DNA of 64,000 nt from Nitrospirae bacterium GWB2_47_37 (GTDB taxonomy: Bacteria; Nitrospirota; Thermodesulfovibrionia; Thermodesulfovibrionales; Dissulfurispiraceae): assembly GCA_001803635.1 (NCBI GenBank), contig MHDU01000001.1:1-64000 (forward strand), read 5' to 3'. Both the position numbers and the translations under genes were made by a program. This document shows positions 2,406 to 38,522 of the stretch, in pieces. Every line of letters starts with the position of its first letter. Within the stretch, counting starts at the first letter, position 1. Under the pieces are notes generated by a model. The model worked only from the letters and a program-made list of their open reading frames with translations. It was not told the DNA's origin and made no database searches.

Positions 2406-3011
2406 ATGATATTAAAGCTTACGAAAGAAAATATCGCCGAGGTTATGAATGCCGCAATAGCCGTTCTTGAAAAAGGCGGCATAGTCGCTTATCCCACGGA
2501 AAGCTTCTACGGCCTCGGCGTAAAATACGACATCGAACCGGCGCTCAAAAGACTGTACGAAATAAAACAACGCCCGAAAGAAAAGGCTATGCCTTTGATC
2601 ATAGGAAGCGTCGAACAGTTGCCGCTGCTTACCGATTATATAAGCGATTCGGCAAAAGAACTCATGGCGAAATTCTGGCCCGGCCCTTTAACCGTGCTTT
2701 TTAATGCCCGCGGCGGCCTTTCCGGATATATAACATCCGGGAATAAAACGGCGGTCAGGATTCCGGGAGAATCGTTCGCGCTCGAACTGGCCAAAGCTGC
2801 CGGATTCCCGATAACGGCAACGAGCGCGAATATATCGGGCATGCCTCCTGCCGCCTGCGCCTCGACGGTAACGGATTATTTCGCCGACGCCGTCGATCTG
2901 ATAATTGATGGGGGAGGAACAAAAGGCGGATTGCCGTCTACAATAATCGACAGCACGGGAAGTGCGCCCCGCATTCTGAGAAGGGGTGCGGTCGATGCGG
3001 ATTCCCTATAA
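2406..3011 (+). CDS. tsaC: L-threonylcarbamoyladenylate synthase (Sua5/YciO/YrdC family)
   Basis: 201 residues, the short single-domain form. It makes threonylcarbamoyl-AMP from threonine, bicarbonate and ATP, the first step of the tRNA t6A37 modification. Visible signatures are GGIVAYPTESFYGLG near residue 25, the substrate-binding KQRPKEKAMPLI near residue 54, WPGPLTVLF near residue 90, and the nucleotide-binding TATSANISG near residue 138. It lacks the C-terminal Sua5 domain. YciO paralogues look alike, so the assignment to TsaC rather than YciO is likely but not certain. It appears monocistronic; the next gene has its own promoter. Confidence 0.85.
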   Translation: MILKLTKENIAEVMNAAIAVLEKGGIVAYPTESFYGLGVKYDIEPALKRLYEIKQRPKEKAMPLIIGSVEQLPLLTDYISDSAKELMAKFWPGPLTVLFNARGGLSGYITSGNKTAVRIPGESFALELAKAAGFPITATSANISGMPPAACASTVTDYFADAVDLIIDGGGTKGGLPSTIIDSTGSAPRILRRGAVDADSL

Positions 3012-3063
3012 AGCCTTTATACAGGCCCTTTTAAATACCGCATAACATGATAGTCCTTTTTAT

Positions 3064-3094
3064 CGAACAATCGTTCCTAAAAATAGAATGTTCT
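3064..3094. promoter_or_regulatory. Two short dyads, one resembling a GAAC-N4-GTTC SOS box
   Basis: CGAACAATCGTTCC (3064-3077) matches the Bacillus-type LexA box at all but one position, and TAGAATGTTCTA (3083-3094) is a perfect 12-bp palindrome. They lie about 40-70 bp upstream of the promoter of the next gene. Similarity to a LexA site may be chance. Confidence 0.25.
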
Positions 3095-3132
3095 ATAAAA
3101 AACAACCTTCGTTTTAAAAAGTAATTTTCTTG

Positions 3133-3161
3133 TTGACAAAAAGAAAATTATATGGTATCGT
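3133..3161 (+). promoter_or_regulatory. Promoter for the winged-helix/NTase gene
   Basis: TTGACA (3133-3138), a 17-bp spacer and TATCGT (3156-3161). The start codon follows 21 bp later with a GAGGGAG ribosome binding site. It probably also drives the two Lys/Ala peptide genes. Confidence 0.56.
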
Positions 3162-3182
3162 TTTATCCATGAGGGAGAAGCA

Positions 3183-3728
3183 ATGCTGAAAAGCTTATTC
3201 TCATCATCGATCAGAGCCGATGTCCTGTCGCTGTTGCTGAACAGCCCGGACGAAAAATTTTACGTAAGGGAAGTCGCAAGGCTCCTGCGGAAAAACCCGT
3301 CCGGCGTCAAAAGAGAACTCGACAAACTGGAAGAAATGGGTCTCTTGTTCAGCGAGAGGGTAGCCAACCTTAAATACTTCCAAGCCAACAAAGAATCTTC
3401 CCTGTTTTCCGAATTGAAAGACCTGATCGCTAAATCCCTCGGACTCCCCGGCGCGCTTAAAAGCCTTTTCAGGGCAAACGATGTAAAATCGGCATTTATT
3501 TACGGCGCATACGCGGAAGGAGAAGAAACACCCACCGTTGATCTCATTGTAGTCGGACATTTCACGCCCTCCCTCCTGACGGGGCTCCACGATATCGAAA
3601 AAAATTTCGGCAAAAGAATAAACTGCACCGTAATAGAAGAAGACGAATATAAGATAAAAAAGAAAAAGGACGCTGCATTGAAGCGCATCTTTGCAGAAAA
3701 AAGGATTACCTTGCTGGGAAGGATTTAG
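3183..3728 (+). CDS. Winged-helix regulator with nucleotidyltransferase-like C-terminal domain
   Basis: 181 residues. Residues 1-65 form a winged helix (VREVARLLRKNPSGVKRELDKLEEMGLL). Residues about 95-130 (FIYGAYAEGEETPTVDLIVVG) match the core strand pattern of minimal nucleotidyltransferases, but the usual G-S and paired acidic residues (G-S...D-x-D) are reduced to GAY and VDL. The domain therefore probably binds a ligand rather than catalysing transfer. Related two-domain proteins are annotated as transcriptional regulators of unknown signal. Only 56 bp separate it from the Lys/Ala peptide genes, suggesting one transcript. Confidence 0.72.
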   Translation: MLKSLFSSSIRADVLSLLLNSPDEKFYVREVARLLRKNPSGVKRELDKLEEMGLLFSERVANLKYFQANKESSLFSELKDLIAKSLGLPGALKSLFRANDVKSAFIYGAYAEGEETPTVDLIVVGHFTPSLLTGLHDIEKNFGKRINCTVIEEDEYKIKKKKDAALKRIFAEKRITLLGRI

Positions 3729-3784
3729 GTTTTTAAAAGCTCCCTCGGGCAAGCGCTCCGGGCGGTAGAAAGGAGGTGAAGAAG

Positions 3785-3850
3785 ATGGCGGCAAAGAAAA
3801 AAGCAGCAGCAAAGAAGGCTCCGGCTAAGAAGGCAGCAAAGAAGAAATAG
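3785..3850 (+). CDS. Tiny Lys/Ala-rich histone-H1-like peptide 1 (21 aa)
   Basis: The frame encodes MAAKKKAAAKKAPAKKAAKK followed by a final K, with no other residue types than Met, Ala, Lys and one Pro. An AAAGGAGGTGA ribosome binding site, close to perfect anti-SD complementarity, lies 6 bp before the ATG, which supports real and strong translation. The composition matches the KKAAP repeats of the C-terminal tails of bacterial H1-like proteins (HctB, AlgP), so nucleic-acid or polyphosphate binding is likely. The peptide has no globular domain. Function is inferred from composition. Confidence 0.74.
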   Translation: MAAKKKAAAKKAPAKKAAKKK

Positions 3851-3893
3851 CGACATCTAAAATGCGTGTTAACAATGAAAGGAGGTGAATAGA

Positions 3894-3977
3894 ATGGCAG
3901 CAGCAAAAAAGAAAGCTCCGGCTAAGAAGGCAGCGGCAAAGAAGCCGGCAGCTAAGAAGGCAGCGAAGAAGAAATAA
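3894..3977 (+). CDS. Tiny Lys/Ala-rich histone-H1-like peptide 2 (27 aa)
   Basis: Second of a tandem pair, 43 bp after the first. It encodes 27 residues: MAAAKKKAPAKKAAAKK, then PAAKKAAKKK. It again has an AAAGGAGGTGA site before the ATG. It shares its last KAAKKK and the KAPAKKAA core with peptide 1, suggesting duplication. The pair ends at a strong terminator 33 bp downstream. It could neutralise DNA, RNA or polyphosphate; no direct evidence distinguishes these. Confidence 0.78.
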   Translation: MAAAKKKAPAKKAAAKKPAAKKAAKKK

Positions 3978-4009
3978 GGAAAGTCGAACTGGGAATGTAC
4001 GATTTTTTA

Positions 4010-4082
4010 GGGAATACCCAAAACAACTAAGTTTGGCAAAAACTCTCGAGTTGGTTTTGAGTTGGGTATTCCCCTTTTTTTT
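4010..4082 (+). terminator. Intrinsic terminator after the Lys/Ala peptide pair
   Basis: GGGAATACCCAA (4010-4021) pairs with TTGGGTATTCCC (4062-4073), with a second inner stem possible (AACAACT with AGTTGGTTT). A run of T follows from 4075. The T tract overlaps the stop codon of lpxC on the other strand. Confidence 0.82.
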
Positions 4083-4977
4083 AACTATAGTTTAAAACTT
4101 GTTGAGGTAAATGGTCAACTTCCGAGACAAGACTCCAGCAATCCACGCAGGAAATGAGCTTTTTCAGAAAATTTATATTAGCCGTATGTCCGGCCTTTTC
4201 GAGCATGATATGACCCTGTATAGGAAACCCTATAAGTGACAAATCTCCAATAGAATCAAGGATTTTATGCCTTACGAACTCGTCATCGAACCTAAGCCCG
4301 GCAGCATTCAGGATACCGTCGTCACCGACGATTACGGCATTATCGAGAGAGCCTCCTTTTGCCAGACCGTTTGCCCTGAGTTGCTCCACGTCGCTGAGAA
4401 AACCGAAGGTTCTTGCCGGAGCGATCTCCTTAATAAAGCTCTTTTCATCTATATCCAGCGTTAATTCCTGATGTCCCGGCATGCGATGCCCGAAGTTTAT
4501 ATAGTACGATATGCGGCTGCCGTCGTAAGGCAGCGCAACTATCCGGGCATGGGCATCTTCATAAACAACCGGCTTGGTGATCTTTATAAACGGCATCTTT
4601 TTGCCCTGCTTTGCTATGCCTGCCTCAAGTATGATCCCCACAAGCTCCGTAGAACTTCCGTCCAGTATGGGGATTTCAGGACCGTCAACCTCTACGATAA
4701 GGTTATCGATGCCGAGACCGGCCGCTGCCGCAAGCAGATGCTCCACCGTCTTTATCTTTACAATGTCGGAGCCGTTTATAAAACCGATAGTCGTGGCAAA
4801 GGCCGTGTCGACAACGGAATTTATGTTCGCCCTTATTATAGCGCCTTTGTCTATTCTGCAAAAGACTATGCCCGTATCCCGGGCAGCAGGCTTCAGCCGC
4901 ACGTTTGCATATTTTCCGGTATGCAACCCTATGCCCTGAAAGACTACCTCTTTTTTAATTGTTCTCTGCAATCTCAT
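4081..4977 (-). CDS. lpxC: UDP-3-O-acyl-N-acetylglucosamine deacetylase
   Basis: 298 residues, normal length. LpxC removes the N-acetyl group in the first committed step of lipid A synthesis. The zinc ligands are visible: H80 in KTVEHLLAA, H237 and D241 in DDEFVRHKILDSIGDL, and the catalytic H264 in AGHTANI. PEIPILDGSS and the ARTFGF segment are also typical. The ATG has no clear Shine-Dalgarno. The gene converges with the Lys/Ala peptide operon and shares its terminator region. Its presence indicates an LPS-bearing outer membrane. Confidence 0.97.
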   Translation of the reverse strand: MRLQRTIKKEVVFQGIGLHTGKYANVRLKPAARDTGIVFCRIDKGAIIRANINSVVDTAFATTIGFINGSDIVKIKTVEHLLAAAAGLGIDNLIVEVDGPEIPILDGSSTELVGIILEAGIAKQGKKMPFIKITKPVVYEDAHARIVALPYDGSRISYYINFGHRMPGHQELTLDIDEKSFIKEIAPARTFGFLSDVEQLRANGLAKGGSLDNAVIVGDDGILNAAGLRFDDEFVRHKILDSIGDLSLIGFPIQGHIMLEKAGHTANINFLKKLISCVDCWSLVSEVDHLPQQVLNYS

Positions 4978-38432: not shown

Positions 38433-38522
38433 ATGGCATGCAAATCGAAAGGTCCTTGCGGTCCGGCTAAAAAGGCTACCGCTAAAAAGACAACTGCAAA
38501 AAAACCGGCAAAGAAAAAATAA
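38433..38522 (+). CDS. Tiny Lys/Ala/Thr-rich peptide 3 with two cysteines (29 aa)
   Basis: The frame encodes MACKSKGPCGPAKKATAKK then TTAKKPAKKK. It has a GAGGAGGTGA site 7 bp before the ATG, an upstream promoter and a terminator downstream, so it is a complete small transcription unit. It shares the KKAxAKK repeat with peptides 1 and 2 but adds an N-terminal CxxxxxC (C3, C9), which could bind metal or form a disulfide. It is a candidate small nucleic-acid-binding peptide. Confidence 0.76.
   Translation: MACKSKGPCGPAKKATAKKTTAKKPAKKK

Follow-up and report, generated by a model that had tools for sequence, protein, structure and literature searches.

Lysine-rich mini-genes and an apparent winged-helix pseudo-nucleotidyltransferase gene at a conserved locus beside lpxC in Nitrospirota

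The window analysed here, a 64-kb stretch of DNA from a member of the Thermodesulfovibrionales (Nitrospirota) by comparison with named GTDB contigs, contains two tandem mini-genes for lysine-rich peptides of 21 and 27 residues which, on comparison with related genomes, are real and strongly conserved genes. They follow a gene for what is apparently a catalytically dead winged-helix nucleotidyltransferase (a pseudoenzyme), hereafter called the regulator. A preliminary description had already read the short frames as genes, and their conserved frame, Shine-Dalgarno (SD) sequence and stop uphold that part of its interpretation. Its comparison with an H1-like tail, and the suggested binding of DNA, RNA or polyphosphate, is plausible. 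What it overlooked was the operon, with its winged-helix protein carrying a degenerate minimal nucleotidyltransferase (MNT) domain, a putatively ancestral HEPN gene and a position adjacent to lpxC.

Mini-genes for lysine-rich peptides

Peptide 1 (21 aa, MAAKKKAAAKKAPAKKAAKKK followed by a stop; 3785-3850, forward strand) and peptide 2 (27 aa, MAAAKKKAPAKKAAAKKPAAKKAAKKK followed by a stop; 3894-3977, forward strand) were defined by translation and by their orthologues. As the preliminary description had proposed, translation, positions and hairpin confirm that both consist exclusively of M, A, K and P, that each is preceded by the SD sequence GAAAGGAGGTGA (3768-3779 and 3877-3888, forward strand), and that they share a single terminator. 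The frame of peptide 1 starts ~57 nt past the stop of the 181-codon regulator gene (3183-3728). These SD sequences stand out by their sequence and rarity: AAAGGRGGTGA has 3 copies in the 64-kb window versus 0.03 expected, and GAAAGGRGGTGA followed by ATG within 3-9 nt has six occurrences in the 2.47-Mb genome against zero for the reversed control pattern, ‘near-perfect’ being judged here against the usual bacterial anti-SD, as a pattern search did not find the 16S 3′ end of this genome. The only other near-perfect GAAAGGRGGTGA starts (G000 C1:60860, C2:440, C38:46326 and C61:13606) precede genes for small proteins with signal-peptide-like N-termini, one CxxCH cytochrome-like, one lipoprotein-like and two Met-rich.

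When the entire window was scanned uniformly for small K-rich frames, the matches were peptides 1 and 2, a related mini-gene at 38433 and a trivial 9-aa frame, and nothing else. The related K/A mini-gene, which includes cysteines (MACKSKGPCGPAKKATAKKTTAKKPAKKK, 29 aa; 38433-38522, forward strand), is preceded by GAGGAGGTGA, carries a terminator-like hairpin of its own and is found with 87-90% DNA identity in two genomes of the same genus and more weakly in G004. Contig C13 of the same genome (L131:3901-4053) encodes a 50-aa pure K/A/P/V repeat protein (beginning MATAKKAAPKKAAPKK) with its own ribosome binding site, and a radical-SAM gene and an Rne/Rng-like gene lie downstream.

A DNA search of 40 relatives matched 32 of them, mostly through the SD sequence and peptide 2. 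Among 80 named loci, where the search began at the upstream gene and covered its downstream side only, a filter recovered a K/A-rich frame in 78; the other two have long valine-containing versions, one of which (L088) is cut by a contig end. All 20 of the deeper relatives sampled, which include other classes, also carry such a frame. When one uniform filter was applied to regulator loci, 99 of 104 were peptide-positive, and the five negatives comprise L088 and four peptide-less paralogues. The preliminary description had named conservation of frame and ribosome binding site in relatives as a test of its proposal, and frame, SD sequence and stop are kept in every relative examined unless a contig end truncates the locus, with GTG or TTG as the start codon in a few orthologues. 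A tandem duplicate like that of the window is present at L003, L004, L023 and L024.

Across the order, the pattern of SD sequence, start and lysines occurs in 106 of 176 genomes (the reversed pattern in 0 of 176) and 97 of 126 good genomes have the regulator, counts that are inflated by the kinship of the sequences and come from genomes that are mostly metagenome bins. Genomes with a regulator but without the pattern are in part those whose SD sequence is GAGAGGGGGTGA. Two families, f3 and f10 (35 genomes), lack both the peptide pattern and the regulator, apart from a remote regulator paralogue in G095. The in-depth search covered one phylum, with plasmid loci as the sole outgroup. Among 100 regulator loci, the peptide was never seen as the tail of a longer protein or fused to the regulator, and no peptide family in Pfam or NCBIfam scored above its cut-off.

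Comparison of similar orthologues of equal length gives 163, 80 and 496 differences at codon positions 1, 2 and 3, with 374 synonymous versus 176 amino-acid-changing codon differences in the same pairs; these counts are summed over pairs and so are non-independent, but the third-position bias is clear. Orthologues consist of 47% K, 32% A and 12% T, and range in length from 13 to 160 aa, and the only conserved feature of residue order is KK spaced by A, P or T. Low-complexity genes change length by replication slippage, so the length freedom of the peptides may be partly mutational. Taken further, low complexity and variable length would fit slippage-prone DNA or a non-coding RNA that has no peptide function, an explanation we find scarcely credible given the invariable retention of start, SD sequence and stop, the synonymous excess and the empty reversed control. 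Rfam gave no credible match to a known RNA family across 2900-4200.

Transcript and candidate control elements

A promoter scan identified TTGACA and TATCGT separated by 17 nt (3133-3161, forward strand), with the -35 element covered by a conserved palindrome of the TTTGTTGACAAA type. Upstream lies a candidate operator array (3065-3113, forward strand) of three elements, GAACAATCGTTC (3065-3076), GAATGTTC (3086-3093) and CAACCTTCGTT (3103-3113), whose centres are ~19 bp apart in the window. In an alignment of 12 orthologous promoters, GAACAATCGTTC, GAATGTTC and CAACTTTCGTT, again ~19 bp apart, are followed by TTTTTGTTGACA and the -10 element, and this arrangement is well conserved. The TTTGT-TG-ACAAA palindrome over the -35 element is present in 41 of 77 upstream regions versus 0.25 in shuffles; a simple pattern for the GAAC box finds it in ~30 of the 77, mainly in close relatives, and in none of the regions of most distant relatives. 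The promoter element TTTTNTTGTTGACAAA has one exact match genome-wide and the GAACRATYGTTC box occurs once in the whole genome, in this promoter region; no regulon beyond the operon itself was found with these elements, and their single-copy status suggests autoregulation rather than a regulon. A LexA box is an unlikely identity for the GAAC box, because the latter is unique in the genome.

Scans for promoters and terminators returned no such site between 3728 and 3785, and the operon is therefore most simply read as a single transcript that starts at the strong promoter (3133-3161). This transcript would end at a terminator (4010-4082, forward strand) recognised as an inverted repeat, whose hairpin arms occupy 4010-4026 and 4057-4073 and lead into a T run, just before the convergent lpxC gene (4081-4977, reverse strand), which is the next gene 3′ of the operon. 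The fold of 3975-4085, terminator included, has a predicted energy of -33 kcal/mol, and columns 4010-4080 show zero substitutions relative to L021, a relative of the same genus; a simple terminator scan missed the 4010-4073 hairpin, whose loop is longer than that scan allows. Together, the strong promoter, the near-perfect SD sequences and the strength of the terminator suggest that the peptides are made in large amounts.

A second hairpin lies in 3729-3767 of the window. Over the equivalent segments of 85 loci its mean z is -2.2, and in most of them it ends 0-5 nt 5′ of the peptide SD sequence. Its 5′ arm (CCCC/CUCC) could pair with the SD sequence instead, in the manner of a translational switch. 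The position of this hairpin would also suit lysine-rich mini-frames that act in cis, as a leader, an attenuator or an mRNA-stability element, with the peptide as a by-product. We regard this as improbable, since the mini-frames are the last genes of their unit and the composition of the chain is kept while its codons differ. A leader requires a gene after it, and with lpxC convergent and no same-strand gene downstream, a leader peptide or attenuator is rejected.

Descent of the regulator from HTH-MNT-HEPN operons

Pfam, AlphaFold, Foldseek and hhalign describe the product of operon gene 1 (3183-3728, forward strand; 181 aa) as a winged-helix protein with a degenerate MNT domain. Pfam HTH_5 matches it at 22.2 bits (cut-off 22) and Polbeta matches weakly. 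Searched with an AlphaFold model of pLDDT 87, Foldseek returned ArsR/MarR repressors as the best PDB matches, with the HTH part covered and a probability of 1.00 for AntR, HlyU and SqrR. The winged-helix N-terminal fold is thus common to the regulator and the ArsR/MarR repressors, which have a metal or ligand site where the regulator has its C-terminal pseudo-nucleotidyltransferase domain. Alignment to intact HTH-MNT proteins by hhalign (probability 100%, E 1.9e-45) indicates that this domain shares ancestry with MNT nucleotidyltransferases. The HTH core, KNPSGVKRELD, is almost invariant.

In the MntA/HepT system, AMP is transferred by means of the GSX10DXD motif and a HEPN tyrosine is the acceptor (PMC7641770). 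The window regulator has GA...TxD where MNT proteins have GSX10DXD, and the complete motif is found in 0 of 100 peptide-linked MNT proteins versus 10 of 10 peptide-less relatives, the latter being four chromosomal paralogues and six plasmid loci. HEPN proteins show the same division, with R[HN]xxxY in 0 of 11 peptide-linked versus 8 of 8 peptide-less copies. These losses indicate that enzyme and acceptor were lost together, in the peptide-bearing lineage.

HEPN genes are present in the deep branches (L143-L148, L151-L154 and L162), where the HEPN gene overlaps the end of the regulator gene and the peptide gene lies 3′ of HEPN. In six of these loci (L144, L152, L146, L143, L147 and L162), HEPN is followed by a tandem array of two or three peptide genes, with a separate SD sequence for every copy (shown in L146), and some peptides of these six and of L145, L153 and L154 are Cys-terminated. 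HEPN is missing from all 80 named loci, and in the window none lies in the interval from 3728 to lpxC; a candidate HEPN at L081 was an artefact, another frame of the peptide gene. Separate HTH-MNT paralogues at L132-L134, some in genomes that also carry the peptide locus, have an intact catalytic motif and a HEPN-type gene after them, have no peptide and resemble ordinary toxin-antitoxin modules.

The locus thus resembles Class II MNT-HEPN modules (MntA/HepT; PF05168 HEPN plus PF01909 MNT, HTH-MNT fusions included) in the profile homology of its regulator, in the HEPN gene of its deep branches and in gene order. It differs in that those modules have an intact GSX10DXD motif, which is lost in every peptide-linked copy, and an adjacent HEPN with R[HN]xxxY or RX4HXY, which is lost in the HEPN proteins here, HEPN itself being gone in the order to which the window belongs. 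A third gene, for the peptide, has been added here, and the papers searched contained neither this three-part module nor a lysine-rich third gene of MNT-HEPN nor these peptides. Finally, the patchy, mobile distribution expected of MNT-HEPN (type VII) modules is not seen: convergent lpxC lies downstream in 84 of 100 loci, deep branches and other classes of the phylum among them, the regulator is widespread in the order, and the locus is nearly always single-copy. Its place beside lpxC across the phylum indicates a vertically inherited resident.

Apparently, then, catalysis disappeared from an MNT-HEPN toxin-antitoxin module, which acquired a polycationic peptide and afterwards shed HEPN; the direction of change (peptide gain, HEPN loss) is read from the distribution. 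Descent from HTH-MNT-HEPN operons is clear and would fit a module that has remained a toxin-antitoxin system, with its polycationic peptide as the toxic or the neutralising part; this is very improbable in view of the lost MNT and HEPN motifs, the absence of HEPN from the window and a non-mobile locus syntenic with lpxC.

Putative function of the peptides

With roughly even confidence, we propose that this vertically inherited, two-part operon is one in which the regulator binds its own promoter and sets the dose of peptides that, like histone H1 tails, bind DNA, RNA or polyphosphate. The regulator would act at the conserved promoter elements, and the peptides, disordered polycations with lysine at about half of their positions, would work like free-standing H1 tails, binding by charge and compacting or clustering the polyanion. 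The probable outcome is a coat on nucleic acid or polyphosphate. A chain that combines this lysine content with free length and loose residue order is most simply explained as a charge-driven polyanion binder, and tolerance of lengths from 13 to 160 residues fits charge-based rather than sequence-specific binding.

The K/A/P-rich chain of the H1-like tails of AlgP, PhaF and HctB is present, by composition, in all orthologues, which share with those tails a KAAK- or KPAA-type composition, expected disorder and polycationic character. The peptides differ in being free-standing, without an N-terminal domain, and in sharing an operon with a regulator. No Pfam model matches them, and the curated H1-like NCBIfam model hist_H1_lk_Burk gives 11.9 bits against a cut-off of 80. 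Support comes from AlgP, whose KPAA peptides bind DNA and whose tail determines where polyphosphate granules lie (PMC9239181). Against the proposal, a general nucleic-acid counter-ion needs no regulator of its own, polyamines could take its place, and the 13-residue versions are little charged and may be weak binders. The GAAC box pattern is also missing from most distant relatives, and slippage may account for part of the length freedom.

The strict operon pairing in 99 of 104 regulator loci, and the joint absence of regulator and peptide from families f3 and f10, would be expected if the peptide were instead a partner of the regulator. It would then bind this pseudo-MNT/HTH protein, together with HEPN in loci that have it, and tune the DNA binding of the regulator as an antitoxin-like factor or co-repressor. 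We consider this unlikely, because the regulator is itself rich in K and R (KIKKKKDAALKRIFAEKR), which makes charge attraction unlikely, and because a free length of 13-160 aa and this composition are unusual for a specific protein interface.

If polyanion binding is taken at its widest, a retired toxin-antitoxin operon would have become a core chromosomal module, phylum-wide, in which a catalytically dead regulator controls the shortest known bacterial family of chromatin- or condensate-forming proteins, free polycationic peptides of as few as 13 residues, apparently overlooked because their genes are so small. We advance this larger proposal only tentatively.

Genes of 13-27 residues, far below the usual limits of gene finders, can persist across a bacterial phylum, and this locus lets one trace how an enzyme-based toxin-antitoxin module gave way to a module of non-enzymatic regulator and peptide. 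Since it is nearly always single-copy and adjoins lpxC, it should be easy to find, delete and test in culturable members. Should the peptides prove to bind DNA, RNA or polyphosphate, few dedicated proteins of this kind would be smaller, and they would offer a simple natural system in which to study charge-driven compaction in cells.
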